Below the pieces are notes generated by a model. That model worked only from the letters and a program-made list of their open reading frames with translations. It ran no database searches and had not been told where the DNA came from. A DNA stretch of 64,000 nucleotides, from the NCBI RefSeq assembly GCF_000422545.1, contig NZ_AULZ01000005.1, forward strand, positions 1-64,000. Direction: 5' to 3'. The position numbers and the translations under genes are program-made. Shown here piece by piece: positions 10,317 to 24,926 of this stretch; within the stretch, counting starts at the first letter, position 1, and each line of letters begins with the position of its first letter. The DNA is from Desulfocurvibacter africanus subsp. africanus DSM 2603. Lineage in GTDB: Bacteria > Desulfobacterota > Desulfovibrionia > Desulfovibrionales > Desulfovibrionaceae.

Positions 10317-10328
10317 CAGGCGGACGGA

Positions 10329-11432
10329 TCACCGCTCGCATTCGCCGCGGATGAACTCCTCGGTAAGGCGGCAGGCCTCGTCATCCGTATACTGCACGGG
10401 CGGGTGCTTCATGAAATAGGCCGAGGGCGAGGTGAGCGCGCCGGCCACGCCCCGCTCGCGGGCAAGCTTGAGGCAGCGGATGGCGTCGATGACCACGCCG
10501 GCCGAGTTTGGCGAGTCCTCCACGGACAGACGGCACTCCAGGCTCATGGGCACGTCGCCGAACAGGCGGCCTTCCAGGCGAATGTAGGCGACCTTGTTGT
10601 CCTTCTGCGACGGCACCCAGTCGCTGGGGCCGATATGGACATGATCACCGGTCAGATGCTGCTCGGTCTGGGATGTCACGGCCTCGGTCTTGGAAATCTT
10701 TTTGGACTGCAGCCGCTGGCGGTCGAGCATGTTCAGGAAGTCGGTGTTGCCGCCGAAGTTGAGCTGATACGTCGAGTCGATCTTGACCCCGCGGTTGCGG
10801 AACAGGCGGGTCAGGGTGCGGTGAACGATGGTCGCGCCCAGCTGCGACTTGATGTCGTCGCCGATGACCGGAATACCTGCTTGCTCGAAGCGGGCGGCCC
10901 ACTCCGGGTTGCTGACGATGAACACGGGGATGTTGTTGACCAGGCTGACCCCGGCCTCCAGGGCGCACTCGGCGTAGAAGCGCGTGGCCTGCTCCGAGCC
11001 CACGGGCAGGTAGTTGAGCAGGATTTCCGCGCCCGTCTCGCGCAGCACGCGCACGACCTCCGCCTTGTCGGGCTGCGCGGCGTCGGCCGGCGCAAAGGTG
11101 TAGCGCTCGTCATAAGCGCGCATGTGCTCGGCCATTCCATCCAGCAAGCGGCCCATGCGCACGCTCACGCCCGCGGGAGGCATGTTCGGGCAAAAAATCT
11201 TCGTGCAGTTGGGCAGACAGTGCATGGCCTCGTGCACATCCTTGCCTACCTTGCGGCGGTCGATGTCCCAGGCCGCCACGACGCGAATATCCGCCGGCGA
11301 GTAGCCGCCCAGGTCCCAATGCATGAGGCCGATGGCTTCCTCGGACTTGCCCTGCCTGTAGAATTCGATGCCCTGAAGCAGTGCGCTGGCGCAGTTGCCG
11401 ATTCCGACTATCGCTATCTTAATTTCTTTCAT
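10329..11432 (-). CDS. ino1: Myo-inositol-1-phosphate synthase
   Basis: 367 aa. Converts glucose-6-phosphate to inositol-1-phosphate using bound NAD. The N-terminal Rossmann motif KIAIVGIGNCASALLQGI and the LNFGGNTDFLNM motif are characteristic of the short prokaryotic/archaeal type. The ATG at 11432 (MKEIKIAIVG) is preferred over a GTG two codons upstream. Last gene of the long minus-strand glycan island and about 100 bp downstream of a CDP-alcohol phosphatidyltransferase, which suggests that the product is built into an inositol phospholipid. Confidence 0.93.
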   Translation of the reverse strand: MKEIKIAIVGIGNCASALLQGIEFYRQGKSEEAIGLMHWDLGGYSPADIRVVAAWDIDRRKVGKDVHEAMHCLPNCTKIFCPNMPPAGVSVRMGRLLDGMAEHMRAYDERYTFAPADAAQPDKAEVVRVLRETGAEILLNYLPVGSEQATRFYAECALEAGVSLVNNIPVFIVSNPEWAARFEQAGIPVIGDDIKSQLGATIVHRTLTRLFRNRGVKIDSTYQLNFGGNTDFLNMLDRQRLQSKKISKTEAVTSQTEQHLTGDHVHIGPSDWVPSQKDNKVAYIRLEGRLFGDVPMSLECRLSVEDSPNSAGVVIDAIRCLKLARERGVAGALTSPSAYFMKHPPVQYTDDEACRLTEEFIRGECER

Positions 11433-11531
11433 TCTCACCTGTCTCCAAGGACCTGAACTTACTAATTCATCCTAGCACGAAAAAAGCTGGGCAACAATAA
11501 ACAGTCACACATTGGCGATGCATACGAGAAC

Positions 11532-12191
11532 TCACGCGGAATCAGGTTCCCGGCTTGCCGGCTTCCGGACCGGAGCCAGGCTGTCCAAACTCCGGCCCAC
11601 GCGCAGCAGCCGGTGACCGGCCGTAAGCAGGCACAGGACCAGATAGAGCCACAGCCCGCCCCAGAGCATGGCGCTCCGGCCTTCCTGGGCCAGCCCGGCG
11701 GCCAGAGCCCAGACCAGAAGATAGACCGTGCGTGCCTCGCGGCTCATGAGCGCCGAGGGGCACGATCCGCCCAGGCCCTCGATGCGGGCCTTGATGTAGC
11801 TGATGAGCAGCGTGGCGGTCATGGCCGCGAAGAACAGGGCCGTGGCCGGGACGAAGTGCGGATCGTCGCGGAACAGAAGCCAGAAGCCGGCCAGGTAGAA
11901 CACGTCGGCCACGCGATCCGTGCTGGAGTCGAGCAGCGCGCCGAAGCGCGTGGACAGCCCCATTTCCCGCGAGACTAGGCCATCCAGGGAGTCGGCCAGC
12001 CCGGACAGGGCCATGGCCGCCAAGCCCCATAGCGGGTGCAGGGCAAAGGCCGGCGGCACGAGGCAAGCCACGGCCAGCCCAGCCACGGTGATGCCGTTGG
12101 GGCCCAGGCCGAGCCCGCGCGCTACGGGCAGCACGCATGCGGCCAGAGTGCGATAGTAGCCCCGGCCAAGCCGACTAGTGCGAAGACCCAT
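11532..12191 (-). CDS. CDP-alcohol phosphatidyltransferase family protein
   Basis: 219 aa from the ATG at 12191 (MGLRTSRLGRGYYRTL). Integral membrane enzyme that moves a phosphatidyl group from CDP-diacylglycerol to an alcohol. The catalytic signature is visible as LADSLDGLVSR followed by FGALLDSSTDR, giving the four conserved Asp; the usual Ala before Arg is Ser. Five or six hydrophobic helices follow. A longer reading starts at an ATG at 12266 that overlaps the methyltransferase stop (TGATG) but adds an atypical Pro/Cys-rich leader. Next to ino1 it is probably a phosphatidylinositol(-phosphate) synthase; the acceptor is inferred from context only. Confidence 0.85.
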   Translation of the reverse strand: MGLRTSRLGRGYYRTLAACVLPVARGLGLGPNGITVAGLAVACLVPPAFALHPLWGLAAMALSGLADSLDGLVSREMGLSTRFGALLDSSTDRVADVFYLAGFWLLFRDDPHFVPATALFFAAMTATLLISYIKARIEGLGGSCPSALMSREARTVYLLVWALAAGLAQEGRSAMLWGGLWLYLVLCLLTAGHRLLRVGRSLDSLAPVRKPASREPDSA

Positions 12192-12265: not shown

Positions 12266-13081
12266 TCAAACGCGCACCAGGATCAGGCCCACGGAGGTAT
12301 ACGGGTAGCCATGAAAGCGGCTCATGGCCGGCCTGACCAGCTCCCAGTCAACCTCCAGATCCACGCCGCCCTCGATGCGGAAACCCTCGGCGTTAAGGAT
12401 GTGCCGACTCAGGGAATCCCGGTCGAACACGTTCCAATCGACCCGGAAGGAGCGGCCCGGCCCCTCGTGCCACATCTCTTCGGATGCGTCGCGGGCGTAG
12501 TCCGTGGTCAACAGCAACCGGCCGTCGGGCCTGAGCACGCGGCGCAATTCGGCCATTGCCAGAGCAATGCCGGACGCCGGAAAATGCTCGATGACCGAAA
12601 TGCAAAATACGGCTTGAAATACACCCTCGGCGAACGGGAGACAAGCCAGGTTTCCCTGGATGCTCAAATAGTTAAGCCCGTGAAGCGCCGCGAGCCCAGC
12701 CGGAGGGTTCAGGTCCACGGCCGCCACCGACATGCCTTGCGCGGCCAGATAGGCCGGAAAGATGGACCCGCCGCAGCCCGCGTCCAGCACACGGTCGCCG
12801 GGCCGCAAGCCCGCCTGCTCCAGGGCCCAGGGATACTCCCAGCGCTTGCTCGGGTGCAGGTAGGACACATCCTCGCGGGCAGTCATGCGCTCCATCTCGC
12901 GCACGATGTCCCGGTAGTCGGGCCGCTCCAGCTCGGCCAGATCCAGAGGCCGGTTGGGGGCGCGGCAGGCAGATATAATGGGAGCTTGTGAGGAGGGCGA
13001 AGAGGGCCTCCGGCGGCCGGGGGAATCATTCCCCCGGACCCCCGCATTGTTAGCGTTATGCCGTTTGGCATCAGGCGACAT
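12266..13081 (-). CDS. Class I SAM-dependent methyltransferase with repeat-derived N-terminus
   Basis: 271 aa. The SAM-binding motif I is VLDAGCGGSIFPAYLAAQG (about residues 97-115), followed by AAVDLNPP, the LPFAEGVFQAVFCISVIEH region and RVLRPDGRLLLTTD, typical of a small-molecule or sugar methyltransferase. Its start overlaps the end of the GT9 gene by 11 bp and an AGGA site precedes it. Codons for about residues 9-26 coincide with a family B repeat module, so the N-terminus appears to be made of captured repeat DNA; the conserved fold starts near residue 45. Acceptor unknown; the context suggests glycan modification. Confidence 0.85.
   Translation of the reverse strand: MSPDAKRHNANNAGVRGNDSPGRRRPSSPSSQAPIISACRAPNRPLDLAELERPDYRDIVREMERMTAREDVSYLHPSKRWEYPWALEQAGLRPGDRVLDAGCGGSIFPAYLAAQGMSVAAVDLNPPAGLAALHGLNYLSIQGNLACLPFAEGVFQAVFCISVIEHFPASGIALAMAELRRVLRPDGRLLLTTDYARDASEEMWHEGPGRSFRVDWNVFDRDSLSRHILNAEGFRIEGGVDLEVDWELVRPAMSRFHGYPYTSVGLILVRV
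13005..13049 (-). repeat. Family B repeat module inside methyltransferase codons
   Basis: Read on the minus strand the segment matches the family B hairpin unit (ATGCGGGGGTCCGGGGGAAT, then ATTCCCCCGG and CCGCCGGAGG) and lies wholly within the 5' coding part of the methyltransferase gene. Confidence 0.75.
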
Positions 13082-14174
13082 GTTCTTCCTTTTTGTCCTG
13101 GGCAGCCTCGTTCACGCGTCTGCAAGCAGCCATGACCGCCTCGGTCGATACATGGGTTACGCAGCCGCCCGGCCCGGCCAGGTCGGAATACAGGCAACGA
13201 CCGGTGGCAATGCACGCGGGCGGGCCGAAGGTATTCCGCCGGCGCAGGGGGCAAGCCACGTCCGGCTCGACAGCCACGCAGCCTGCGTGGCGCGGCAGGT
13301 AGATGCGCGGGTCCGTGGGGCCGAACACGGCCAAGGCCGGCGTGCCCACTGCCGCGGCCATGTGCAGGAGGCCGGTATCGTTGCAAACAAGCGCCCGGCA
13401 GCGGGCCAGAACGGCTGCCGTAATCCGCAGCGGCAGACAGTTAGCCAGGCGCACCCTGTCCTGGCGGCGCATGGAGGCGAGAACGTGTTGCGCGTCCCCG
13501 GCTTCCGGACCGGCGAGAATGAGCACAGGACGGCCCAGTTCGTCCGCCACCATGTCGGCGACCCTGGCCAATCGCTCTTCGGGCCAACGCTTGAGCGGCG
13601 AGGAAGCCACGGCTGACACGGCCACGACCTGACGATCATCCGCCAAGCCCAGCCCGCGCAGGATCAGTGTCGCGTCCTCGCGCTCATCCTGCTCCAGCGC
13701 CAAGCTTGGCGGGTTGGCGGGGTTCAGCTCAAGTCCCCAGCCACGGCGAATGTCCTCGATCACGGCATCCTGGCCGCTGCCGTTCCGGGCCAGAATAGCA
13801 GGCAGCGCGCCTTCTCCCGAATCCAGGAACAGCCCTCCCCGCCGCCACAAGGCCAGGCGTACGCAGGTCACGGCATGGGACACGTCCAGCACCGCGTCGA
13901 AATTCCGCTCATCCAGCCAGCGTTCCACCTCGGTCGTGGCCACCGCATCGCCATAATCACCCCAATGCCGCAGGCCGAAGCCCTGCACGGCCACGACCTC
14001 GTCAACGCCTTGGTTGCGCGCCACCAGCGCCGTGGCCGGGGCGGCCCCCAAAGCCGTTATGTGCGCTCGCGGGGATGCGCGGCGCAGAGCCCGCAGGGCA
14101 GGCGTCTCCATGACCACGTCGCCGATGCCGTAGCGCAGGCAGACCAGGATGCGTCGCAAGCTGGAAAAATCCAT
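13071..14174 (-). CDS. Glycosyltransferase family 9 (heptosyltransferase-like)
   Basis: 367 aa. GT-B glycosyltransferase of the ADP-heptose:LPS heptosyltransferase family. Visible marks are the N-terminal RILVCLRYGIGDVVMETPAL motif, the second-domain LKRWPEERLARVADM region and the nucleotide-sugar site CNDTGLLHMAAAVGTPALAV with GPTDPR after it. Several cysteines near the C-terminus are unusual. It belongs to the glycan island, between two methyltransferase genes; donor and acceptor sugars cannot be told from sequence. Confidence 0.9.
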   Translation of the reverse strand: MDFSSLRRILVCLRYGIGDVVMETPALRALRRASPRAHITALGAAPATALVARNQGVDEVVAVQGFGLRHWGDYGDAVATTEVERWLDERNFDAVLDVSHAVTCVRLALWRRGGLFLDSGEGALPAILARNGSGQDAVIEDIRRGWGLELNPANPPSLALEQDEREDATLILRGLGLADDRQVVAVSAVASSPLKRWPEERLARVADMVADELGRPVLILAGPEAGDAQHVLASMRRQDRVRLANCLPLRITAAVLARCRALVCNDTGLLHMAAAVGTPALAVFGPTDPRIYLPRHAGCVAVEPDVACPLRRRNTFGPPACIATGRCLYSDLAGPGGCVTHVSTEAVMAACRRVNEAAQDKKEEHVA

Positions 14175-14180
14175 GCCGTC

Positions 14181-14975
14181 CTACCCGCCCCCCGGAGCCG
14201 CGCGGCCCAGGGCGGCCGCGAACTCCTCCTCGAAACCCAGGCCGCGGCGCGACTCGCCCTCTGGGTCGGGTTCGCAGAGCCAGACTTCCGTGCCAGGCCG
14301 GGCGACGACCTTGAGGGCGCGCGTGCGCAAGACGGCTTCCACGCAGGACGGATTCGGCACCCACCAGTTGGTTGGGTCGCCGGCCATGGAGTGCTCCACG
14401 AAGGCCATGCGCGGCCAAGCTTCGGAAACCAGTTCAGCCCGCTGGGCGAAAGGCAGGTCGCGCACCTCCGGCCCCTGCTCCGGGCCGGGCATGATCAGGG
14501 TCTGGAAGGCCAGCAGCCGGCCGACCTTCTCGCGCACGATATCCAGGGCCAGCAGGGGATAGCGCAGGTGGTAGAATACGCCCAGGAACAGCACCAGGTC
14601 GCAGGTCCCGGCCATGCGGGCCAGCTCGTAAACCTGCATGCGCCGGAATTCGATGCGCTCGGCCAGGCCGTAAACCCTGGCGGCCCAGGCGGCCTGGGAC
14701 AGATAGTGCGCGTTGGAGTCGATGGCCGTGACCCGCGCTCCGCGCCGAGCCAGCTCGAAACTGTAGAAGCCCGCGTTGCAGCCGATGTCCAGGACGGTCC
14801 AGCCCGTCATGTCCTGGGGCAGCAGCGGGGCCAGCTCCTGCCACTTGTAGGCCGGAAAATCGCCCAGAAAATGGTCGGGCGCGGTCTGTGTGCCGTCCGG
14901 CAGGTGCAGGTTGTGGAACCAGGGCTGCATGCTTCTGGCCGCGTCGGCCAGGCTGAGTCCAGCGGTTTGGGCCAT
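14181..14975 (-). CDS. CmoB-like SAM-dependent methyltransferase of glycan clusters
   Basis: 264 aa from the ATG at 14975, which has a perfect AAGGAG five bases upstream; the frame is open much further but the extra part is non-protein-like. The N-terminal WFHNLHLPDG...HFLGDFPAYKW block and VLDIGCNAGFYSFELARRGA motif resemble CmoB/DUF1698 methyltransferases, but it is short and set among glycosyltransferases, so tRNA modification is unlikely. From memory it corresponds to a methyltransferase family that recurs in clusters with CgeB glycosyltransferases and a B12 radical SAM protein (unverified). Six bases separate it from the GT9 gene. Confidence 0.85.
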   Translation of the reverse strand: MAQTAGLSLADAARSMQPWFHNLHLPDGTQTAPDHFLGDFPAYKWQELAPLLPQDMTGWTVLDIGCNAGFYSFELARRGARVTAIDSNAHYLSQAAWAARVYGLAERIEFRRMQVYELARMAGTCDLVLFLGVFYHLRYPLLALDIVREKVGRLLAFQTLIMPGPEQGPEVRDLPFAQRAELVSEAWPRMAFVEHSMAGDPTNWWVPNPSCVEAVLRTRALKVVARPGTEVWLCEPDPEGESRRGLGFEEEFAAALGRAAPGGG

Positions 14976-15046
14976 GACGTCTCCTTGCCGCGGCGCCGTG
15001 ACTCCGGCAGCCGCGCGATGTGTCCGGACACGAGTGAGTTGACGCA

Positions 15047-15652
15047 TCACAGAACCGGCAAGGCCCCCGTGTGGTTCAGGCAACGCAACTCCGCGCCCCA
15101 CTCCTCCAGGGCCAGCACGCTCACCGAGGCTGGCTCCAGGACCACGCGCAACACGAAATCCAGAGGCAACCCCAGGAAATGCATGAGCGCCGCGCGAATA
15201 GTGTCGGCATGGCTGACCAGGGCCACCCGGCTTCCGTGATATTCCTCGCGCAAGGCCAGCATGAGCCCAGCCACGCGCGCCTGGACCTCCAGCATGGTCT
15301 CGCCGCCTGGAATGCGCGTGCCGCTGCGGAAGCTGTTGAAGGCCTTCCAGCGCGGATCGCCTTCCAGTTCCGCGTAGCTCTTGCCCGTCCACTGCCCGTA
15401 ATCCAGCTCGTTCAACTCCTGCCGAACATCCACTCGCACCCCGACGGCCTCGGCCAAGGGCGCAGCGGTCTGCCGGGCGCGCTCCAGAGGGCTCGACAGC
15501 ACGGCGGACAGCCCGACGCCGCGCAAGCGTTCGGCCACTTCCCGCGCCTCGCGCCGGCCCCGCTCGGTCAGCTCCACGCTCGGACTGCGGCCGTTGATCG
15601 CCTTGCCCACATTGTCGGCATGGCCATGGCGCACCAGCAGGAACATACTCAT
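15047..15652 (-). CDS. Histidine phosphatase (phosphoglycerate mutase-like)
   Basis: 201 aa. The catalytic RHG motif is in LLVRHGHADN near residue 8; SSPLERARQTA and the second catalytic His in LVSHADTIRAAL are also present, and an ELDYGQWTG segment carries the acid residue. It is closest to the alpha-ribazole phosphatase/cofactor-independent mutase branch (CobC-like). It overlaps the glycosidase gene upstream by four bases (ATGA). In this island it could dephosphorylate a sugar-phosphate intermediate; a role in cobalamin synthesis for the B12 radical SAM neighbour is a less likely alternative. Confidence 0.88.
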   Translation of the reverse strand: MSMFLLVRHGHADNVGKAINGRSPSVELTERGRREAREVAERLRGVGLSAVLSSPLERARQTAAPLAEAVGVRVDVRQELNELDYGQWTGKSYAELEGDPRWKAFNSFRSGTRIPGGETMLEVQARVAGLMLALREEYHGSRVALVSHADTIRAALMHFLGLPLDFVLRVVLEPASVSVLALEEWGAELRCLNHTGALPVL

Positions 15653-16557
15653 GCGAACCTCTTCACGGCCCCGGCACCGGCCGGCACGTAGCGGTCCACG
15701 ACCTGGGCCGCGAAATAGGCAAACTCGCCCGGGTCCAAGGGCGGGCTAGTGTGGCAGGGCCGCTTGCCCCGCGAGGGCGGAGTGAAGCAGAGCGTAACCG
15801 TGACCTCGAACTCCTCCAGGGCCTCCATCTGACGGTCGAACCAGCGCACAGCCTCGGGCCTGTGCCAATCGGCCCAGCTGATGCCCGTGCGCAGCCGGCG
15901 CACGCCTATCTTGCGCAGCCACTCCACGGCCAGCTCCAGGCGGTGGTCCTCGAAGTGGAACCACTGGGCGATGCCCAGTTCGGGATCAAAATGCTCCAGC
16001 GCCGGCTTTGGCCTGCCGTCGGCGCGGATGAGACCCATGTGGAAGTGGCGGTAGTAGGAGCTGCCCTCGCTCTCCTTGTGGCGCGTGGTGGCCTCCCAGG
16101 TGGGCGGCAGGTCGAACAGGCTGTACCAGAAGATCCGCTCGGCCTTGCCGCGCAGCAGCTCGGCCGTGCGCTTGAGGCCGAAGGACTGCACCTCGTAGGC
16201 TCCAAATGTGGACACGCCCACTTCCGTGACCCACACCGGCTTTCCGGTCAGCTCGGCCACCTCGCGCACCTTGTCCGGCCACTCGTCGATCATCCAGTGG
16301 TTCCAGTCCAAGGGAAAACCATGCACGGCCACGGCGTCTACCGCGTCCAGCACGCCGAAGCCGGCCAGCCTGCGCAGAAACTGCGGATCGATGGGCGAGA
16401 TGCCACCCAGAACCTGGGTCAGCCCAGGGCGCGCGTCGCGCATGGCTTGCGAGGCCAGCAGCGCCATGTCCGAAAACTCCCGCCACTCCGGGTCCATGAG
16501 GAAATCCCAGTGCGAGAGGTTGTTGGGCTCGTTCCAGATCTTGACCGCTTCAACCAT
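15649..16557 (-). CDS. Clan GH-A-like glycosidase with permuted halves
   Basis: 302 aa from the ATG at 16557 (GGGAGA four bases upstream). The protein begins almost at the acid/base motif VKIWNEPNNLSHWD, which normally falls on strand 4 of a beta/alpha barrel, and then shows VHGFPLDWN and the likely nucleophile motif VWVTEVGVSTFG. The last 90 residues (VRRLRTGISWADWHRPEA, VTVTLCFTPPSRGKRPCHTS) look like the first strands of the same kind of barrel. The order therefore appears circularly permuted. No signal peptide, so it is cytoplasmic. Homologues are usually labelled beta-xylosidase; substrate unknown. Confidence 0.75.
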   Translation of the reverse strand: MVEAVKIWNEPNNLSHWDFLMDPEWREFSDMALLASQAMRDARPGLTQVLGGISPIDPQFLRRLAGFGVLDAVDAVAVHGFPLDWNHWMIDEWPDKVREVAELTGKPVWVTEVGVSTFGAYEVQSFGLKRTAELLRGKAERIFWYSLFDLPPTWEATTRHKESEGSSYYRHFHMGLIRADGRPKPALEHFDPELGIAQWFHFEDHRLELAVEWLRKIGVRRLRTGISWADWHRPEAVRWFDRQMEALEEFEVTVTLCFTPPSRGKRPCHTSPPLDPGEFAYFAAQVVDRYVPAGAGAVKRFA

Positions 16558-16580
16558 GCATTCTCCCTTTAACTGACTTT

Positions 16581-16800
16581 GTGGAGAGGGCGCTGCCCTC
16601 TCCACGCCTCTCCCGGCAGGGGTGCTGCCCCTGCACCCCGCCAGGGAGATGATCTCCCTGGACCCTGCATTTTGATGACGCGGACGAGTGCGTCGCCGGC
16701 ACGTCCGGACTTCCCCCCAAACATCGCGGGTCCAGGGGCGCGCCTTATCCGACGGCCCTGGCGGGGTGAAGTCTGGAGAGGGGCAGCGCCCCTCTCCAGG
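16581..16800. repeat. Family B repeat pair (copy B1)
   Basis: Two inverted arms. The left arm has hairpins GGAGAGGGCGCTGCCCTCTCC and CCAGGGAGATGATCTCCCTGG; the right arm has GGTCCAGGGGCGCGCC...GGCCCTGG and GGAGAGGGGCAGCGCCCCTCTCC. It fills the gap between the glycosidase and the first CgeB-like gene, both minus strand. Confidence 0.88.
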
Positions 16801-16803
16801 TCT

Positions 16804-17892
16804 TTACGCGCTCCAGCGCTGCTCGCCGCCATGGCCGGCAGCCTCTTCGGCATACGCCACGAGTTCCCGCGCACGCGCGTCCGCCGTGTGCGACTCCAAA
16901 ACCCTGGCTCTGGCGGCCCGGGCCAGGCTTCCGCGCTCGGGCTCGCTCATGTGCGTCATGCAATCGGCCACATCCTGGCTGGATGCGGCCACGATGATTT
17001 CCTCGTCGGGCCGGAAGAAGTCGTCCAGCCCAGCCCACCAGTCGCTGATCACAGGCGTGCCGCAGGCCCCGGCCTCGAACAGACGTATGCTCGGCGACCA
17101 GCCTGCCGCAACCATATCCGCGCGGGTCAGGTTGAGCGTGAAGCGTTGGGCCGCATAGAAGCCGGGATGCTCGGGCGGCGGCAGATGTTCCACGCGCGCC
17201 ACGTTGCCCGGCCAGGCGATATTCGCCGGGTACTGCGGTCCGGCCACCACGAAATGCTTGTCGGACAAGCTCTGCGCCGGCTCCAGCATGAGCCGCGAGA
17301 GAACCGGCTGGCGCGTGGGGCAGTAGGTGCCCAGGTAGCCCAGGTCCCACTGCGGGGCGCGGCGCACGGGGTAGTAGTTGCGCGGGTCCACGCTGCAGTA
17401 CAGGGGCCGGGCCATGGGCGAGCCGAACTCCTTCTCCAGGCGCGTGAGCGTCGGCCCGCCGGTGAAGGAAAGGTACAGGTCGTAGGCCGGGATGAGCGAC
17501 GGCTCCAGGTAGGCGCACTCGCCGCGCGCCAAAGCCGCCAGCGTCACGGGCGTGTCGATGTCGTAGAAGGCCCGCACGCCGCTCGCCGTGTCGAGCACGA
17601 AGCGGCCCACCTGCACGCCTCGGGGCACATAGGAGCCCACGATGACCAAGTCGGCCTCGCGCACGGCCTGCACATGGCGTGGGGAAAGATCCTTGATGCG
17701 CTTGTAGAGCACTGTCTCGCAGAAGGGCGGCGAGGGCAGGTCGCGGTTCTCGGCATACCAGGGCACGTCGCGCTCCAGGAACAGCACGCGATGGCCGCGC
17801 GCGGCCAGGGCGCGCACCAGGCCGCGATAGGTCACGGCATGGCCGTTGCCCCAGGAAGAGGTGATGGACAACCCGAAAATGGCTACGCGCAT
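16804..17892 (-). CDS. CgeB-like glycosyltransferase (copy 1)
   Basis: 362 aa from the ATG at 17892, which has GGGAGG seven bases upstream and overlaps the previous gene by 10 bp. GT-B fold protein of the CgeB type: N-terminal RVAIFGLSITSSWGNGHAVT, a central DLGYLGTYCPTRQPVLSRLM segment and the C-terminal GWSPSIRLFEAGACGTPVIS motif with the Glu of retaining GT4-like enzymes. No membrane helix. It is the last of three tandem related genes. CgeB is known from Bacillus spore-surface glycosylation; here it must act on another polysaccharide. The sugars are unknown. Confidence 0.87.
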   Translation of the reverse strand: MRVAIFGLSITSSWGNGHAVTYRGLVRALAARGHRVLFLERDVPWYAENRDLPSPPFCETVLYKRIKDLSPRHVQAVREADLVIVGSYVPRGVQVGRFVLDTASGVRAFYDIDTPVTLAALARGECAYLEPSLIPAYDLYLSFTGGPTLTRLEKEFGSPMARPLYCSVDPRNYYPVRRAPQWDLGYLGTYCPTRQPVLSRLMLEPAQSLSDKHFVVAGPQYPANIAWPGNVARVEHLPPPEHPGFYAAQRFTLNLTRADMVAAGWSPSIRLFEAGACGTPVISDWWAGLDDFFRPDEEIIVAASSQDVADCMTHMSEPERGSLARAARARVLESHTADARARELVAYAEEAAGHGGEQRWSA

Positions 17893-18977
17893 TGGACGGC
17901 CTCCCGGTCCGTGATCTCGCCACGCAGCAGCCAATCGAGTCCGCGCGCCCGGCGGGCATATGTGTGCTGATCCATGGCCCGCGCCAGGGCCGCCAGGCCG
18001 ATGACCCGCGCCTTGCGCGGCGAGAGGTCGGCCAAGACCTCGGCCACCTCCTCGCCGGAACCGGCCACGAGTATCTCGCGGCCCGGCTCGAAGAAGTCTC
18101 CCACGCCCGTGAAGGCGTCCGTGATGACACAAGCGCCTGCCGCCGCAGCCTCGAAGACCCGCGTGGCCGGCGACCAGCCGTTCAGGGCCATGCTCTCGCG
18201 GTTGATGTTGAGCACGGCAAGGGTCGAGCAGTTCAGGGCGTTGTGGTCCGCGGTGTAGACATGGCCGAGCCAACGCACGTTGCCCGGCATCGGCTTGCCG
18301 TCCCAGCCGTTGCCGCCCAGCAGGAAGCTCCGGCTCGGCAGGCGCTCGGCGGCCTTGAGGAAGAACTCCTCCACCCTGGCCTCGCGGTCGGGCAGCCGGT
18401 TGCCCAGAAAGCTCAGATCGGCCCGGAAGCGTGCCCTGCAGCCCACGGGATGGTGCGTCTCGGGCGAGAATCCATTGTAGATCGGCACGCACAGCCGTGC
18501 GCCGAACTTTTCAAAGGCCTGCACCACGGGTCGGCCGCCCCCGTAGGTCAGCACCAGGTCGTAGCGCGGCAGGTTGGCGCGCATGGGGTCGGCCGGATCG
18601 GCGTCGATTCGCGCCAGCGTGGCCGGAGCATCCACGTCCCAGTAGGTCACCAGGGTGGACGGGGACTGCAGCCGCAGCACCTCGCGCTCCAGGTACTCGT
18701 CGAATATGCCCACGCCGCTGGCCTTGACCACCACGTCGGCTCCGGCGGCCTGCTCCAGGCAGGCGTCCACGCCGTCCTGCGTCGGCGGATAGACCACCAC
18801 CTTCACCCAGTGCGGGTCGTCCATGTCGCGGTGCTGCTGACGGCCGTAGGCATCGGGCTCGTAGAAGGTCACGCGCCAGCCCAGGGAGTGCAGCTCGCGG
18901 ATGAGCCCGCGGTAATATGTCGCGGCCCCGTTCCAGTAGGCGGACACGAGGCTCGAACCGAAGAATGCCATATTCAT
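17883..18977 (-). CDS. CgeB-like glycosyltransferase (copy 2)
   Basis: 364 aa. N-terminus MNMAFFGSSLVSAYWNGAAT followed by YYRGLIRELHSLGWRVTFYE; the C-terminal domain has LNGWSPATRVFEAAAAGACV and then DFFEPGREILVA. Clearly paralogous with copies 1 and 3 and fused to them by short overlaps: 10 bp with copy 1 and an ATGA overlap with copy 3. The YWDVDAPATLARI motif is shared with copy 1 (YDIDTPVTLAAL), suggesting a similar donor site in these two copies that copy 3 lacks. Probable cytoplasmic enzyme; sugar specificity unknown. Confidence 0.87.
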   Translation of the reverse strand: MNMAFFGSSLVSAYWNGAATYYRGLIRELHSLGWRVTFYEPDAYGRQQHRDMDDPHWVKVVVYPPTQDGVDACLEQAAGADVVVKASGVGIFDEYLEREVLRLQSPSTLVTYWDVDAPATLARIDADPADPMRANLPRYDLVLTYGGGRPVVQAFEKFGARLCVPIYNGFSPETHHPVGCRARFRADLSFLGNRLPDREARVEEFFLKAAERLPSRSFLLGGNGWDGKPMPGNVRWLGHVYTADHNALNCSTLAVLNINRESMALNGWSPATRVFEAAAAGACVITDAFTGVGDFFEPGREILVAGSGEEVAEVLADLSPRKARVIGLAALARAMDQHTYARRARGLDWLLRGEITDREAVQCA

Positions 18978-20107
18978 GCGTTTGCCTCCGTGGCGGTAAT
19001 GGCGCGCGCGGTCCGGCTCTCCCGGCCCAGCCCTGCGCAGATATTCAGCAGCTCGACGGCCCGATGGCCGCAGGTGTGGCGGGAAAGAACGGTCTCCAGC
19101 CCGCTGCGGGCCAGGGATTCGGCCAGATCCGGATCACAGAGCACCTCGCGCATCTTGAGCTCCATGTCCCGGCCGCAACGGGCTGACAGGTAGTCCTGGC
19201 CGGGCCGGAACAGGCCCTCGATGTCCTCCCAGAGCGAGCACAGGAGCGGGATGCCGCAGGCCAGGGCCTCGAACACGCGGATGGTCGGGATGCCGGGGAG
19301 CTGGCGGGTGTAGAGCCGCCTGGGCACGTGCACGGTCATACGGTGGGCTGCGAATATCTCGGGAACGCGATGGTTGGCCAGCCAGCCCATGTACTGCGCG
19401 CCGGAGCGATGCACGGCCAGCAGGCCCGGCTCGGGGTAGCGCACGCCGTACACGCGCGCGGACAACCCCTGACAGCGCAAGGGTCCGTACAGGAACTCGC
19501 GCAACTCGTGGCTGCGCTCGCCGTCGCCCCAGTTGCCCACGAACACGAGGTCGCGCTCCCGGCGCAGCTCGGGCCTGGGCCGGAACAGCTCCGTGTCCGC
19601 GGCCTCGTGCCATACGTAGGCACGACCGTCCCAGCCCTGGCGCACATAGACCTCGCGCAGGGCCCCGCCGAATGCCAGCACGCCGTCGAAGGCCGAGAGG
19701 TCGAAGGCGGCCATTTCCTCGGGCCTGCTCACGGCCCGGTGGTGCGTGTCATGGAAGAAGAGCAGGAATTGCCCGCCGCCCGCGCGCCTGCGGCCGATGC
19801 GGCCGGCCAATGCCGGGTCGTTCCACTCGTGGACCAGCACCACATCCGCGCCATCCAAGGCTTGATCCAGATCCAGTGAGTCCGGGTCGTACTCCTGGGA
19901 AGTGAAGCCGGAAAAGGCACGGTAAAAATCGTCCTCCGCACGGGGGTCCGTTTCGAGCATGTTCGCGCGGCTCCAGCCGTCGACCGGCTCGTACACCCGG
20001 ACCTCATGGCCCAGGCCGGTCAAGGAGCGCACAAGACCACGCAGGAAGTGGGCATTGCCGTGGTTCCAGCAGGAAACCAGCGAGTGATAGAAGAGCACGA
20101 AGCGCAC
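18974..20107 (-). CDS. CgeB-like glycosyltransferase (copy 3)
   Basis: 377 aa using a GTG start at 20107 that follows the upstream TAG by one base, with GGGAG six bases ahead; the frame is open 20 codons further but would overlap the GT4 gene. N-terminus VRFVLFYHSLVSCWNHGNAH, then DLVFVGNWGDGERSHELREF and the C-terminal LPGIPTIRVFEALACGIPLL motif with DYLSARC after it. This is the most divergent of the three paralogues. It probably adds one sugar in the pathway; the acceptor is unknown. Confidence 0.87.
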   Translation of the reverse strand: MRFVLFYHSLVSCWNHGNAHFLRGLVRSLTGLGHEVRVYEPVDGWSRANMLETDPRAEDDFYRAFSGFTSQEYDPDSLDLDQALDGADVVLVHEWNDPALAGRIGRRRAGGGQFLLFFHDTHHRAVSRPEEMAAFDLSAFDGVLAFGGALREVYVRQGWDGRAYVWHEAADTELFRPRPELRRERDLVFVGNWGDGERSHELREFLYGPLRCQGLSARVYGVRYPEPGLLAVHRSGAQYMGWLANHRVPEIFAAHRMTVHVPRRLYTRQLPGIPTIRVFEALACGIPLLCSLWEDIEGLFRPGQDYLSARCGRDMELKMREVLCDPDLAESLARSGLETVLSRHTCGHRAVELLNICAGLGRESRTARAITATEANA

Positions 20108-20108
20108 T

Positions 20109-21302
20109 CTAGGCTCCCTGGGCCAAGGCCAGCGGCCCTTGTCCCGAGTCGTCGGGGCCCTGGTCATCGGGTTCGATTTCGCTGGAGGAGGCGTGCTCCA
20201 AGTCGATGACCCCTAGGCCGTCGCCTACCATGAGGTTGTAAACCGCGGCGTAACGCAGGGCCATGCGCTCCACGCTCATGGCCAGGGCCCTTGCGCGGGC
20301 CTCGCGGGCCAGCCGCGTGCGCAAACCCTTGCGGATCATGAGCAGGGTCAGGGCATTGCGCAGCTCCCTGGGCTCGTCGGGGTCCACGAACAGCGCCGCG
20401 CCGTTCCACAGCTCGCGCAGGCTGCCGATGTCGCCCAGCACAAGGGCGCAGCCGCTCATGGCCGCTTCGAGCACCGTCAGGCCGAATGGCTCGTAGCGTG
20501 CGGGCAGGCAGTAGATGGAGGCCTTGGCCATGTGTCCGGCCAAGGCCGCGCGCGGCAAAAAGCCCAGGTACTCGGCGTTGGCGGGCTTGCAGGATGTGCC
20601 GCAAGGGTGGCGCCACTCTCCGGCGATTCTCACGGGCCAGGCCAGGTTGCTGGCGGCCTTGTCCAGGCTGGTTACGTTCTTGGCCTCGTCCCACACGCGC
20701 CCGGCCCCGAGCACCAGCGGCTGCTTGCGGCCGGGCGAGAACAAGGCGGGGTCGCAGCCGTTGCGGATGACGATGGCCGGAGCCGAGCGGCCGTACAGGC
20801 TGTGTATCGTGCGCAGCATGTGACGCGTCGGCGCGGCCACCGCGTCGGCTCCCAGCAGGCCACGCTTGACCAATTCGGCGTAGCCCAACCACTGTTTCGG
20901 GGCCATGCGCCCCTTGACCGCCAGCCACCAGGACAGCACGCACGAATGGGCCACGACGAGGCAAGGCGCTTTCCAGGGCAGGCAGCCGTGGGCGTAATTG
21001 TTCAGATGGATCAGGTCCGGCCTGACCACGGACTCCAGGTCCAGCAGCCATTCCCCGGCTCGACCCACGTCCGCCGTGCCGCCGTCCATCCACTCCAGCT
21101 TGAAGTCGCCGTGGTGCAGCTCAAGGCCGACAATGGACTCGGCCTCGGCGCGCCGCTCGGCGGACAGGTCGCCCATGACCGCCAGGGTCACGCGCACGCC
21201 GAGCTTCGCCAGGCCCCGCACCAGGTCCAGGCAGTAATCCCAGACCCCGCCCACGGCATCGGCGGTCATGAGCACCCGCCGCACTTTCCTCGTTATGGTC
21301 AT
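20109..21302 (-). CDS. Glycosyltransferase family 4
   Basis: 397 aa from the ATG at 21302 (GGAGG just upstream). GT-B fold retaining glycosyltransferase. N-terminal domain: RRVLMTADAVGGVWDYCLDL; the linker has VIRNGCDPALFSPGRK; the C-terminal donor site is YCLPARYEPFGLTVLEAAMS with the E-x7-E pattern typical of GT4. The C-terminal 35 residues are acidic and low-complexity, unlike the family core. One base separates it from CgeB copy 3, and a family A repeat lies just upstream, between it and the radical SAM gene. Confidence 0.92.
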   Translation of the reverse strand: MTITRKVRRVLMTADAVGGVWDYCLDLVRGLAKLGVRVTLAVMGDLSAERRAEAESIVGLELHHGDFKLEWMDGGTADVGRAGEWLLDLESVVRPDLIHLNNYAHGCLPWKAPCLVVAHSCVLSWWLAVKGRMAPKQWLGYAELVKRGLLGADAVAAPTRHMLRTIHSLYGRSAPAIVIRNGCDPALFSPGRKQPLVLGAGRVWDEAKNVTSLDKAASNLAWPVRIAGEWRHPCGTSCKPANAEYLGFLPRAALAGHMAKASIYCLPARYEPFGLTVLEAAMSGCALVLGDIGSLRELWNGAALFVDPDEPRELRNALTLLMIRKGLRTRLAREARARALAMSVERMALRYAAVYNLMVGDGLGVIDLEHASSSEIEPDDQGPDDSGQGPLALAQGA

Positions 21303-21318
21303 GCCGCCTCCAGCCAAA

Positions 21319-21442
21319 ACAGATTGCTTTTAAGACGCCCGCTCCGGCGTTGACGGCGCAAGTGAATTGCGCCTACGCCTGCTCGGCGGCAAGCCATGCC
21401 GACGCATGGCTTGCAGAGCATTTTCAAAAGCAAAATGCTCTA
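21319..21442 (+). repeat. Family A repeat (copy A4), supplies a stop codon
   Basis: Complete copy between the GT4 and radical SAM genes. The TAG that ends the radical SAM gene (21440-21442) is the first triplet of the terminal repeat TAGAGCATTTTGC. A small sequence change (CCTGCTCGGCGGC) distinguishes this copy. Confidence 0.92.
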
Positions 21443-22714
21443 GCTCCCCACTGCCGCGGGCATGCTCCAGGCGTCCTGCAGCTCGCTCAGGCGCGTTACG
21501 CCCGCATGGTAGTCCTGCAGGGCCCGCTCCCAAGCCAGGTCGTCGGGCTCGCCCCATTTGCGCCGGTAGATATTCGAGCCGGGATAAGGAAAAATGGGCA
21601 CGGGATCATTGGCCCATATGCCGCGACTGTGCAGCCTGTCCCGCCACTCGGCCACGAAGTCCGGACTCTCGCAGCCCACGTCCACCAGGTTTGCCTGCAC
21701 GAAGGGAATATTGCTCTTGGCCATGACCAGCCGCTCGACCATCTGCTCGGTGCTCATGGCGCTGCGCTTGCCGAGCAGGGCGCGCACATCCGGGGTCAGG
21801 CACTCCAGGCCGGCCTCCACGGACACGCAGCCGGCCCTGCCCAGCAGTTCCAGATCGCGCGGCTTCCATATGTCGATGCGCGTCTGGATGCCGAATTTGA
21901 GTCCACGAGCGGCCAGTTCGCTGAGCAATGGCCGGTCGGCCAGGAACAGCTCGTCGATGAAGTAGACGTACTCCACGCCCCGCGACAGCAGGCCGTCGAT
22001 CTCGGCCAGCACCGTGGCCATGGGCCGCTTGCGGTACACGCCGCGGAAGTATTCGCGGGCGCAGAACACACAGCCGAACGGGCAGCCGCGCGAAGCCTCC
22101 ACCTCCGCGCCGGGACCCTTGGGCGGCGCATCGAAGCGGTGGTGATGGTGAACATGGCGCGAGATCCACTCGTCTGGCCAGCTCAAGGCCGGCAACGCCT
22201 CCACCTTCGCGGTCTGCACCCGGCCGTCCTTGCCGTGCAGGCGTCCGCGCCAGTTGAAGACCAGGCCGGGAATCTCGCGCCAGTCCTTGTCCGCCAAAAG
22301 TGGCAGGGCCTGCTCGAACTCGCCGCGCAGCACGGCGTCGGCCCGCAGCTTGGCCAGAACCGAACCGGGGCTGGTGGACGGGTGCGGGCCCACGGCCACG
22401 AGCACGCCGGCCGCCTCGATGATGGCCGCGGCCGTCAGTTCGGGCACGGTCAGCTCGGGCTGGGCGCAGCGCCAGAACAGGTAGGTCGGGGCAGTGACCA
22501 GCACCGTGAAGTCCGGCGCGAAGTCCTCCAGCCGGGCGCGCAAATCGCCCAGTGACAGATTGAACAGGTGCGCGTCGATGATCACGGCCTCATGGCCGGC
22601 GTCCTCCAGGGCCCGCGCGGCGTAGCCCAGCTCCAGCGGCAGATGCGGCTCGCGGCAGCCGAAATAGACGCTGCCGGCGAAGCACCAGTTTGGATTGACG
22701 AGCGCGAATCTCAT
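21440..22714 (-). CDS. B12-binding domain radical SAM protein
   Basis: 424 aa from the ATG at 22714, with GGGAGG seven bases upstream and an ATGA overlap with the epimerase. Residues 1-160 form a B12-binding-like Rossmann domain (PLELGYAARALEDAGHEAVI, VAVGPHPSTSPGS). The radical SAM core has SRGCPFGCVFCAREYF, the CxxxCxxC cluster site, near residue 205. This class performs methylations or rearrangements on unreactive carbons. The stop codon comes from a family A repeat, so the original C-terminus may be shortened. In this island it probably modifies a sugar or lipid; I believe the same family recurs with CgeB clusters elsewhere (unverified). Confidence 0.9.
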   Translation of the reverse strand: MRFALVNPNWCFAGSVYFGCREPHLPLELGYAARALEDAGHEAVIIDAHLFNLSLGDLRARLEDFAPDFTVLVTAPTYLFWRCAQPELTVPELTAAAIIEAAGVLVAVGPHPSTSPGSVLAKLRADAVLRGEFEQALPLLADKDWREIPGLVFNWRGRLHGKDGRVQTAKVEALPALSWPDEWISRHVHHHHRFDAPPKGPGAEVEASRGCPFGCVFCAREYFRGVYRKRPMATVLAEIDGLLSRGVEYVYFIDELFLADRPLLSELAARGLKFGIQTRIDIWKPRDLELLGRAGCVSVEAGLECLTPDVRALLGKRSAMSTEQMVERLVMAKSNIPFVQANLVDVGCESPDFVAEWRDRLHSRGIWANDPVPIFPYPGSNIYRRKWGEPDDLAWERALQDYHAGVTRLSELQDAWSMPAAVGS

Positions 22715-23814
22715 GAAATGGCCTCCCGTGCCCAAAGTTGTCCGCCTGCCATGACTCTGTGCTCCTTGAGCCACTTCGTCAGGGCGGCCACACCGTCCCT
22801 CTTGCTCATGCGCGGTTTCCAGCCCGTGGCCGCTTCGAAGCCGCCCGTGTCGGCCACGAACCAGGCCTGGTCGCCAGGCCTGCCCTTGCCGTAGGCCATG
22901 GAAGCGGGCGTCACGCCCAGTTCGCGCATCATGTCCAGAAGCTCCAGCAGGCTTATGGCGTTATCCGGCCCGCCGCCCATGTTGAAGGCCCTGCCGCGCA
23001 GATCGTCGGCAAGCTTCACGGCCAGCAGGAAGGCGTCGACCAAATCCTCCACCCAGAGCACGTCGCGCACCTGCTTGCCGTTGCCGTAGATGGTCAGCCC
23101 CCGTCCCTCCAGGGCGCTGATGAGGAAATGGGCCACCCAGCCCTGGTCCTCGGTGCCGGACTGATGCGGGCCGTAGATGCAGCTCATGCGCATGGCCACG
23201 GCCCGCAGGCCGTAGATGCGTGCGTAATCCAACACGTACTGATCGGCCGCGCCCTTGGAGCAGCCGTAAGGGCTGTAGAAATCCAGGGGACGGTCCTCGG
23301 CCACGCCGTGCTCGGCCACCAAGGCATCGACCGGTGCATAGCGCGTGTCGCCCTCCAGCAGCTCCAGATTGGCCAGCTTGCCGTAAACCTTGTTGGTGGA
23401 GGTGAACACCAATGGCGGCGGGTTTTCGAGGCTTCGCAAGGCCTCAAGGACGTTGAGCGTGCCCGCGGCGTTGACCTCGAAGTCCGCGCGCGGATTGCGC
23501 ACGCTCGTGGTCACGGCCACCTGCGCGGCCAGATGGAAGACTGCGTCCGCGCCCTGCACGGCCGAAGCCACGGCGCGGGCGTCGCGCACGTCGGCTGTCT
23601 GCGCGGTGACCAGATCGCCGTGCATGGCCTTGAGCCACGCCAGATTCCGTTCGCCGCCGGGCCGGGACAGGTTGTCCAGGATGAGCACGCGGCGTCCCTG
23701 GCCGGCCAGACGGTGGCTCAAGTTTGTGCCGATGAAGCCTGCCCCGCCGGTGACCAGCGCATGGGGTCCGCTGCGCTGACGCGACAGGGACGCGGTTCCC
23801 CGCTTGGCTGTCAT
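22711..23814 (-). CDS. NAD-dependent nucleotide-sugar epimerase (CDP-paratose 2-epimerase-like)
   Basis: 367 aa from the ATG at 23814, which overlaps the previous stop (ATGA). Extended short-chain dehydrogenase: NAD site ALVTGGAGFIGTNLSHRLA, catalytic Ser-Thr around VFTSTNKVYG and the YxxxK pair in YSPYGCSKGAADQY. The TNKVYG and GCSKGAADQYVLDYARIYGL wording is typical of the CDP-paratose/tyvelose 2-epimerase branch, but the sugar cannot be fixed from sequence. It supplies an activated sugar for the glycosyltransferases downstream. Confidence 0.92.
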   Translation of the reverse strand: MTAKRGTASLSRQRSGPHALVTGGAGFIGTNLSHRLAGQGRRVLILDNLSRPGGERNLAWLKAMHGDLVTAQTADVRDARAVASAVQGADAVFHLAAQVAVTTSVRNPRADFEVNAAGTLNVLEALRSLENPPPLVFTSTNKVYGKLANLELLEGDTRYAPVDALVAEHGVAEDRPLDFYSPYGCSKGAADQYVLDYARIYGLRAVAMRMSCIYGPHQSGTEDQGWVAHFLISALEGRGLTIYGNGKQVRDVLWVEDLVDAFLLAVKLADDLRGRAFNMGGGPDNAISLLELLDMMRELGVTPASMAYGKGRPGDQAWFVADTGGFEAATGWKPRMSKRDGVAALTKWLKEHRVMAGGQLWAREAIS

Positions 23815-24926
23815 ATGGTCAGCCCCCTGCCGCTCAGCTCCTTGGCCATGTCGTCGAACTTGTCCACTGCCTGCTGTCCCGCCAGCCAGTCGGACAGCTC
23901 CGCCAGGCCGTCGCTCAGCTCCACCTGGGGCTTGAAGCCGAGCACGTTTCTGGCCAGGCTCGTATCCGCGAAGCAGTGGCGGATGTCGCCCACGCGGCAC
24001 TTGCCCGTGATCTCCGGCTCCAGGGAGCTGCCCAGCACCGCTCCCAGACCTTCGGCCAGGTCGCGCACGGAATAGCTGTTGCCGCTACCGATGTTGAAGA
24101 CCTTGCCTGCGGCATCCGGCTTTTCCAGGGCCAGCCTGCAGGCTCGGGCCACATCGGCCACGTGCACGAAGTCCCGGCGCTGGCGACCATCCTCGAAGAT
24201 CATGGGCGATTTGCCGTTGAGCAGGCGCGAGGCGAAGATAGCCAGCACGCCCGTGTAGGGGTTGGAGAGGGCCTGGCGCGTGCCGTAGACGTTGAAGAAG
24301 CGCAGGCCCACGGTCTGGATGCCGTAGCTTGAACCCACCATGTGGCACATGCGTTCCTGGGCGTACTTGCTAAGGGCGTAGACCGAGGCCAGGCAGGGCC
24401 GCTTGCTTTCCGGCGTGGGCATGGGCACGAGCGGCGCGCCGTCCCTGTCGCAGCACTCCCAGCGTCCCTGGCGCAGGGCCTCGCCCTCGCGGCAGGCGTC
24501 TTCCACCAGCCGGCCGTCGGGAGCCAGATAGAGGCCCTCGCCGTAGATGGACATGGACGAGGCCACGATCAACCGCTCCACGGGATTCGTCGTGAGCTTC
24601 TGCAGAAGGGCGGCGGTTCCGGTCTCGTTCACGTCCACATAATCGCGCACCTGATACATGCTCTGCCCGACGCCGACCATGGCCGCGAAATGGAATACCG
24701 CGTCCACTCCGCACAGGCACTTGCGCAGCATGTTCATGTCGCGCACATCCCCGACCAGCAGTTCCACTTCCGGATCCAGATAATCAGGACGGATCTTGTC
24801 CCGGCCGTGAACCTGCTCGCTCAGGTTGTCTAGCACTCGCACCGCGTATCCGGCGGCCAGAAGCTCGTCGGCCAGATGCGAGCCGATGAAGCCCGCTCCG
24901 CCCGTAATGAGCACCTGTTTGGCCAT
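23811..24926 (-). CDS. NAD-dependent nucleotide-sugar epimerase/dehydratase (GalE-like)
   Basis: 371 aa. Extended SDR enzyme: QVLITGGAGFIGSHLADELL at the N-terminus, a VASSMSIYGEG segment with the catalytic Ser, and YALSKYAQERMCHMVGSSYG with the YxxxK pair. An insert of about 45 residues after IYGEG (rich in Cys, Arg and Pro) is larger than in plain GalE and resembles dTDP-glucuronate/galacturonate epimerase-like proteins of glycan clusters. First gene of the minus-strand island, with about 390 bp of AT-rich regulatory DNA upstream. Confidence 0.92.
   Translation of the reverse strand: MAKQVLITGGAGFIGSHLADELLAAGYAVRVLDNLSEQVHGRDKIRPDYLDPEVELLVGDVRDMNMLRKCLCGVDAVFHFAAMVGVGQSMYQVRDYVDVNETGTAALLQKLTTNPVERLIVASSMSIYGEGLYLAPDGRLVEDACREGEALRQGRWECCDRDGAPLVPMPTPESKRPCLASVYALSKYAQERMCHMVGSSYGIQTVGLRFFNVYGTRQALSNPYTGVLAIFASRLLNGKSPMIFEDGRQRRDFVHVADVARACRLALEKPDAAGKVFNIGSGNSYSVRDLAEGLGAVLGSSLEPEITGKCRVGDIRHCFADTSLARNVLGFKPQVELSDGLAELSDWLAGQQAVDKFDDMAKELSGRGLTI

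Follow-up and report, generated by a model that had tools for sequence, protein, structure and literature searches.

PslG is a GH39-related endo-glycosidase of the Psl exopolysaccharide locus of Pseudomonas. The glycosidase encoded in the gene island analysed here resembles PslG (PDB 5bx9, 4zn2 and 9g17) in its predicted barrel fold, in an acid/base residue within a WNEPN motif, in the nucleophile glutamate and in belonging to a glycan-building locus. However, its strands 4-8 precede strands 1-3, it is about 300 residues long, it lacks a signal peptide and it adjoins an inositol synthase. In the MshA route to mycothiol and in PIM synthesis, an Ino1-type synthase makes inositol-3-phosphate and GT4 glycosylation follows; the island differs from both in its three to four CgeB enzymes (named after a spore protein), its epimerases and its radical SAM enzyme.

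The mycobacterial MMP and MGLP loci encode a glycosyltransferase, a methyltransferase and a chain-recycling endo-glycosidase for a cytoplasmic polymethylated glycan (PMC9883506). The island likewise combines predicted glycosyltransferases, methyltransferases and a glycosidase, whereas an inositol synthase, CgeB and a B12 radical SAM enzyme go unmentioned in the parts of that account consulted. MmpH can be likened to the island glycosidase by its proposed role.

The set is not wholly unrecognised, as NCBIfam has TIGR04295 and TIGR04290 as hypothetical equivalogs, and the island radical SAM enzyme and the methyltransferase MT1 pass the respective curated cut-offs. Both entries carry names without a function and, as returned, neither holds the inositol link or the permuted glycosidase. 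No description of the TIGR04295/TIGR04290 gene set was found in the open literature searched.

Gene content and organization of the island

The preliminary description placed about twelve genes, overlapping head to tail on one strand, at 13071-24926 of the window (the whole stretch analysed, 64,000 nucleotides). Every gene that it named is present there on the minus strand with unambiguous family matches: two SDR sugar epimerases, a B12 radical SAM enzyme, GT4, three CgeB-type glycosyltransferases, a glycosidase (with a weak Pfam match), a histidine phosphatase, methyltransferases and GT9 (Table 1). Eleven genes are complete in this interval, but only the start of a twelfth (MT2) falls inside. 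The genes share one strand but do not all overlap, with gaps of 137 nt between the radical SAM and GT4 genes, 246 nt between CgeB3 and the glycosidase and 71 nt between the phosphatase and MT1. The island also extends beyond this interval to about 10329, which adds a second methyltransferase, a CDP-alcohol phosphatidyltransferase and a myo-inositol-3-phosphate synthase and brings the total to 14 genes. None of the island proteins matched a Pfam family of Wzx, Wzy or ABC transporters, which supports the earlier view that this is not an ordinary O-antigen locus.

Table 1. Genes and a repeat of the island. Loci, occurrence at the island position among 83 loci, which contain one duplicate (L030 = L093, the same contig of a single genome, listed both as G119 and as G236).
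Feature	Position	Strand	Family match	Loci
epi1, SDR nucleotide-sugar epimerase/dehydratase (GalE-like)	23811..24926	-	PF01370, 180 bits	79
epi2, SDR nearest CDP-tyvelose (CDP-paratose) 2-epimerase	22711..23814	-	PF01370, 175 bits	72
B12-binding radical SAM enzyme	21440..22714	-	TIGR04295, 593.7 bits (cut-off 400)	
GT4-type glycosyltransferase	20109..21302	-	PF13439/PF00534	82
CgeB1, GT-B glycosyltransferase	18974..20167	-	PF13524, 116.8 bits (cut-off 25)	
CgeB2, GT-B glycosyltransferase	17883..18977	-	PF13524, 125.7 bits (cut-off 25)	
CgeB3, GT-B glycosyltransferase	16804..17892	-	PF13524, 130.8 bits (cut-off 25), scored on the longer ORF 16804-18492; start placed at 17892	71
21-nt dispersed palindrome	16583..16603	.		
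Circularly permuted PslG/GH39-like glycosidase	15649..16557	-	PF11790, 22 bits (cut-off 21)	
Histidine phosphatase (branch 1)	15047..15652	-	PF00300, 173 bits	
MT1, TIGR04290 family SAM methyltransferase	14181..14975	-	TIGR04290, 355.7 bits (cut-off 300), scored on the longer ORF 14181-15392	
GT9 glycosyltransferase	13071..14174	-	PF01075, 81 bits	1 (window)
MT2, second SAM methyltransferase	12266..13081	-	PF08241, 58 bits	1 (window)
CDP-alcohol phosphatidyltransferase, bacterial phosphatidylinositol-phosphate-synthase-like	11532..12191	-	PF01066, 47 bits	1 (window)
myo-Inositol-3-phosphate synthase, Ino1 type	10329..11432	-	PF01658, 125 bits (cut-off 27)	

The PDB matches of epi1 are UDP-glucose 4-epimerases and their relatives, and those of epi2 include 9rl0 (E 2e-85) and 1orr (E 2e-80); in some relatives epi2 is fused behind a canonical-order glycosidase domain. 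The radical SAM enzyme carries the cluster motif CxxxCxxC. GT4 matches MshA weakly (29.9 bits, cut-off 462.5), and the best NCBIfam match of the histidine phosphatase, the MSMEG_4193 family TIGR03848, stays below its cut-off (172 against 203.85 bits). CgeB1 may start at GTG 20107, since its relatives align from residue 21. The phosphatidyltransferase matches 6h5a (E 1.8e-15) and fails the phosphatidylinositol-phosphate synthase family NF045883 (94.5 bits, cut-off 170). The inositol synthase, the sole such gene in the genome, matches the solved synthase 1gr0 over its full length (E 1.3e-114, PDB) and misses the mycothiol-type INO1 family TIGR03450 (439.6 bits, cut-off 638). The earlier interpretation is partly supported, having missed the inositol-phosphate synthase and PI-synthase-like genes, the split into two modules and the permutation of the glycosidase.

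A circularly permuted PslG-like glycosidase

The main new result is this permutation, which we regard as close to certain, whereas the product is something that we infer. The protein, a predicted glycosidase, is almost certainly a retaining barrel of the PslG/GH39-like kind that has undergone natural circular permutation. The acid/base strand (WNEPNN) stands at its N-terminus, and strands 1-3, the opening strands of PslG and of the epimerase-fused paralogue of the same cluster, close the chain; on account of this rotated order we term it a permuted relative and not a GH39 member. The predicted catalytic residues are the acid/base E10 in WNEPNN and the nucleophile E112 in WVTEVG, which sit on strands 4 and 7 according to an AF2 model of an eight-stranded barrel (pLDDT 87, pTM 0.87). 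WNEPNN and the nucleophile motif are present in 45/45 permuted copies, and both glutamates are invariant in the 30 aligned (30/30).

A profile built from eight canonical-order copies matched the window glycosidase in two exchanged segments, profile positions 125-302 aligning with residues 2-184 and positions 14-121 with residues 185-290. Rotation in silico raised the score of all 30 permuted copies (30/30), the median of the best single-domain score rising from 120 to 201 bits. The canonical profile is collinear with PslG (22-304 to 20-321, E 3e-8); the permuted profile aligns with it in exchanged segments, 3-152 with PslG 132-300 and 197-293 with PslG 21-128 (E 6e-8).

The weak Pfam match of the glycosidase would fit a spurious rotation, produced by gene calling, assembly or chance alignment. 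However, the same order is shared by 45 loci, the 44 other proteins being 60-68% identical to the window protein from end to end. In 36 of 44 loci the MT1 stop codon shares 1 or 4 nt with the beginning of the glycosidase gene, and this overlap fixes the N-terminus at strand 4; L111 lacks a start codon where one was computed. PslG, a reference outside the cluster, gives the same rotation and therefore also counts against an artefact, which we consider extremely improbable.

Structure searches agree with PslG kinship for the canonical paralogue (PslG, Z 26.3). With the permuted model, the best listed match reached Z 13.8 and the matches were other barrels, and Foldseek and VIA-align returned generic TIM barrels with no GH39 among the matches listed; sequential aligners handle a rotated chain poorly, and the missing GH39 match is not taken to mark a difference. 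Fixed-order profile searches undercount permuted enzymes, as the 22 bits obtained with Pfam illustrate. On circular permutation in glycoside hydrolases, the open literature searched yielded, by title and abstract, an alpha-glucan review and unrelated papers.

The canonical-order copies differ according to the presence of a permuted partner. All four full-length copies without one keep both catalytic glutamates, whereas five of the six full-length copies with one have lost at least the nucleophile. The canonical copy of L078, which keeps the nucleophile, was left out of the four because it is visible from its second half only; with it included, the Fisher value is 0.013. It is an evenly balanced proposition that the permuted glycosidase, spread through several bacterial phyla, is the hallmark of an undescribed pathway to a methylated inositol oligosaccharide and that it replaced an ancestral canonical glycosidase-epimerase fusion of the same cluster. 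A conserved PslG-like permutant with its canonical paralogue in one cluster would be a clean case in which to study how barrel enzymes withstand rearrangement.

Distribution and association with inositol synthase

Relatives of the radical SAM enzyme are encoded in 440 stretches from several phyla. Across phyla the genes keep the order epi1-epi2-rSAM-GT4-CgeB1-CgeB2-CgeB3, so that they are not dispersed in all relatives. A similar set, without a known product, had been suggested for Rhizobiales; it is present in Bradyrhizobium and Methylobacterium, and the open literature searched contained no described product. The island is absent from the six genomes of the same family examined, and in a quick radical SAM tree the window falls, at support 0.96, with a Desulfuromonadales MAG (L032) and two Nitrospirae MAGs (L090 and L076). 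The set is conserved and transferable, its transfer being argued from these two observations. GC content was set aside as a sign of transfer, since the island (0.66-0.69) is matched by other window stretches (0.68-0.69).

In the phylum of the window, the permuted glycosidase occurs in exactly three of 198 genomes, which are those with TIGR04295 above its cut-off. Across the 44 genomes with the cluster it was found in 41, and inositol synthase in 40, being missing in all three that lack the permuted glycosidase. The two genes lie at most 5 kb apart in 23 of the 41. In one order represented by 150 genomes, all nine with the permuted glycosidase have the synthase, always within 5 kb, compared with 22 of the 141 without it; these samples include related species, and Fisher values overstate their independence. 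It is thus likely that the permuted glycosidase is coupled to an inositol branch. Inositol is not universal, however, because the synthase is missing from four of the 44 genomes that carry the cluster.

Two gene modules

The genes form two modules, which usually occur together and can lie apart. Module A consists of inositol-3-phosphate synthase, histidine phosphatase, (CgeB4, nucleotidyltransferase), MT1 and the permuted glycosidase, and module B of epi1, epi2, the B12 radical SAM enzyme, GT4 and CgeB1-3. The module A nucleotidyltransferase had no match in the window genome.

Both modules need not contribute to a single molecule, because the radical SAM enzyme is missing in five of the nine genomes with the permuted glycosidase in the 150-genome order, and MT1 occurs without a nearby synthase in L131 and L132. 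Two unrelated pathways might therefore stand side by side, module A making a methylated inositol as a compatible solute and module B a C-methylated glycan. Those five genomes fit this idea, as do Azospirillum and Skermanella genomes (G202, G208 and G228) in which the modules are physically separate. However, the permuted glycosidase accompanies module B in 41 of 44 genomes, and L126, L129 and L130, whose genomes lack TIGR04295, keep module B CgeB enzymes beside module A. Considering both sides, we judge independent pathways unlikely.

Proposed product and pathway

As the best explanation of the whole, and judging from gene content, we propose a horizontally spread pathway that would build a methylated, inositol-containing oligosaccharide in the cytoplasm, with a probability of roughly one half. 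The identity of the product as a cytoplasmic methylated inositol oligosaccharide is put forward tentatively. The synthase would make inositol-3-phosphate, which (or free inositol) a GT4 or CgeB enzyme would glycosylate, and the histidine phosphatase would strip the phosphate. Sugar nucleotides would be supplied by epi2, of the C2-epimerase type, and epi1, while the remaining CgeB enzymes would lengthen the chain. MT1 (here also MT2) would O-methylate it, and the B12 radical SAM enzyme would C-methylate or otherwise remodel a sugar. The cytosolic permuted glycosidase would trim, recycle or transglycosylate the chain, much as MmpH acts on mycobacterial methylmannose polysaccharide. The PI-phosphate-synthase-like enzyme of this genome may also place inositol on a lipid. 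The presence of the PI-synthase-like gene, GT9 and MT2 in a single locus counts against this explanation. With inositol phosphate proposed as its starting molecule, and with a marker enzyme, this nameless, widespread gene set would become a pathway open to testing.

The cytoplasmic location is suggested by the glycosidase, which has no N-terminal hydrophobic stretch, and by the lack of a transporter among the conserved annotated families surveyed in the locus flanks. Alternatively, the product is an exported surface glycan (capsule, exopolysaccharide or spore-like coat) with its exporter encoded elsewhere, and the glycosidase serves as an accessory hydrolase, in the way that PslG serves Psl. 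PslG is indeed its nearest solved relative and comes from an exopolysaccharide locus, and the name CgeB points to spores. Yet no flippase, polymerase or ABC transporter is found among the conserved annotated families, and a permuted chain that begins at a barrel strand leaves no room for a signal peptide, making export improbable.

A membrane glycolipid anchored through phosphatidylinositol, like the mycobacterial PIMs, appears quite unlikely. Inositol phosphate would be transferred onto CDP-diacylglycerol, after which the histidine phosphatase would remove the phosphate and GT4 and CgeB enzymes would add the sugars. The synthase adjoins the PI-phosphate-synthase-like gene in the window, and the flanks of the cluster carry cardiolipin-synthase-like PLD, EEP and VTT genes in nine, eight and five of the 83 loci, respectively. 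These flanking lipid genes represent a minority of loci, however, and the phosphatidyltransferase stands beside the set in the window only and scores below the PI-phosphate synthase cut-off. Synthesis of bradyrhizose, mycothiol or hopanoid cyclitol was set aside, as no hpn or msh neighbours occur among the annotated families; the set spans phyla that are not known to make these compounds.

Other features of the locus

An open reading frame on the plus strand (10251-11456), opposite the inositol synthase gene, has no Pfam match. The palindrome that separates CgeB3 from the glycosidase gene has 16 forward sites in the genome, compared with 0 for its reversed control.

Gene content of the island

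The genome of the window comprises 4.4 Mb in 40 contigs, of which C3 holds the window. The island consists of 14 minus-strand genes. The preliminary description had placed it at 13071-24926; that span stands, but its edges do not, as the last three of the 14 genes were left out. One of these is the myo-inositol-3-phosphate synthase gene, the sole copy in the genome (PF01658, 125 bits; solved synthase 1gr0, E 1e-114), and the reading frame on the opposite strand gave no Pfam match. The component genes are of known kinds, two of the families having already been named by NCBI, without function.

Features of the window and of related loci
Feature	Location	Strand	Remarks
Island	window 24926-10329	-	Order: epi1 and epi2 (SDR sugar epimerases), B12 radical SAM, GT4, CgeB1, CgeB2, CgeB3, glycosidase, histidine phosphatase, MT1 (TIGR04290 methyltransferase), GT9, MT2 (second methyltransferase), CDP-alcohol phosphatidyltransferase, inositol-3-phosphate synthase
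ORF opposite synthase	window 10251-11456	+	
Oxidoreductase	window 25317-26864	+	FAD-dependent, fused to Rieske domain; adjoins island
Chemotaxis protein	window 28787-30517	+	Methyl-accepting, C-terminal hemerythrin domain; likely an oxygen sensor
Palindrome GGAGAGGGNNNNGCCCTCTCC	window 16583-16603, 30536-30556, 38961-38981		REP-like repeat; 16 forward sites genome-wide, 0 for reversed control pattern
PLD/EEP/VTT cassette	L029 11960-14288		Similar places in L030/L093, L045, L062, L075, L076 and L090
Canonical glycosidase domain	L093 8011-8907		Fused ahead of epi2
Two canonical-order glycosidase relatives	G018:C31:368882-379564		Open frames of 477 and 1260 aa; no TIGR04295 over cut-off in genome G018

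Conservation and modular organization

Relatives of the radical SAM protein were found encoded in 440 stretches of the genome collection with a three-sequence profile, and 80 of these were retained. Together with the window, L029 and L030 (on the same contig as L093), 83 loci were compared. Because contig ends cut many loci, the counts are lower bounds: radical SAM 83, GT4 82, epi1 79, CgeB1 76, CgeB2 73, epi2 72, CgeB3 71, glycosidase 51 (both strand orders pooled), MT1 50, phosphatase 41 and inositol synthase 36, with GT9, MT2 and the phosphatidyltransferase in one locus each. Gene order is strongly conserved. A cassette of PLD-type (cardiolipin-synthase-like) and EEP genes, in some cases with VTT-domain genes, lies next to the cluster in loci from deltaproteobacteria and Nitrospirae.

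Loci around the glycosidase, taken both from genomes that carry the radical SAM gene and from genomes that lack it, delimit a module A of inositol synthase, phosphatase, (CgeB4, nucleotidyltransferase), MT1 and glycosidase, reduced to synthase-phosphatase-MT1-glycosidase in L126, L129, L130 and L134. Module B is epi1-epi2-rSAM-GT4-CgeB1-CgeB2-CgeB3. The two adjoin in Bradyrhizobium (L051) and are separated in the Azospirillum and Skermanella genomes examined; the window contains both, but rearranged. The product might be cytoplasmic, chiefly given that the conserved families annotated include no transporter and that the glycosidase has no signal peptide. The mycobacterial methylmannose polysaccharide pathway (PMC9883506) may serve as a working analogy for the island, not as a sign of family membership.

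Strand order of the glycosidase

Judged by sequence comparison, the PslG/GH39-like glycosidase is a circular permutant. When the window protein was aligned to L030 by BLASTP, it matched in two pieces in swapped order, and 44 other loci encode the swapped form at full length (60-68% identity); the canonical-order form is found as the N-terminal portion of an epi2 fusion. Profile scores before and after the sequence was rotated in silico also support permutation, as does comparison with PslG. Structure prediction gives a barrel of eight strands, which would run 4, 5, 6, 7, 8, 1, 2, 3 in a PslG numbering read from the alignment and the model. Among the structural matches listed, its best was a lacto-N-biosidase (Z 13.8, rmsd 3.8, 231 aligned); the predicted barrel of the canonical L087 copy matched PslG best (Z 26.3, rmsd 3.3, 288 aligned). 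In 36 of 44 loci the glycosidase gene begins within the end of MT1, its start codon sharing 1 or 4 nt with the MT1 stop, so no strands 1-3 have been lost upstream. MT1 is not upstream of the glycosidase in the window, where AGGGAG precedes the ATG at 16557. The literature searched describes no PslG-like barrel with a natural circular permutation.

Catalytic residues

The WNEPNN and nucleophile motifs, whose Glu residues we take to be catalytic from PslG and clan GH-A, occur in all 45 permuted copies. Where the genome has no permuted copy, full-length canonical copies retain both Glu (4/4; L080, L087, L131, L132), and L078, visible only in its second half, retains the nucleophile. Six canonical copies have a permuted partner; of these, both Glu persist in L038 and the nucleophile is gone from L039, L042, L075, L086 and L093 (Fisher 0.013 for retention versus partner, L078 included; small sample). 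Since canonical copies without a permuted partner keep these residues and most partnered ones do not, one working copy is suggested to be needed. The canonical domain of L093/L030, whose cluster also has an intact permuted copy, apparently lacks the catalytic residues.

Link to inositol synthase

Among the 44 cluster genomes, from 44 of the 80 retained loci, 41 encode a full-length permuted glycosidase and 40 the inositol synthase, the two lying at most 5 kb apart in 23 of the 41. The synthase is absent from all three genomes without a permuted copy (G231, G232, G234) and also from G233. A further sample covered 150 genomes from the order to which G216, the sample centre, belongs. Nine, G216 included, have a permuted copy, all with the synthase within 5 kb; it occurs in 22 of the 141 without one and in neither of the two having only a canonical copy. 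Just four of the nine have TIGR04295, and therefore in this order the permuted copy is associated more closely with inositol than with the radical SAM protein. No such tie between a permuted PslG-like glycosidase and the synthase was described in the literature searched. TIGR04295 passed the cut-off in none of the six other genomes of the window's own family and in 3 of 198 genomes of its phylum, the same three in which the permuted copy was found.
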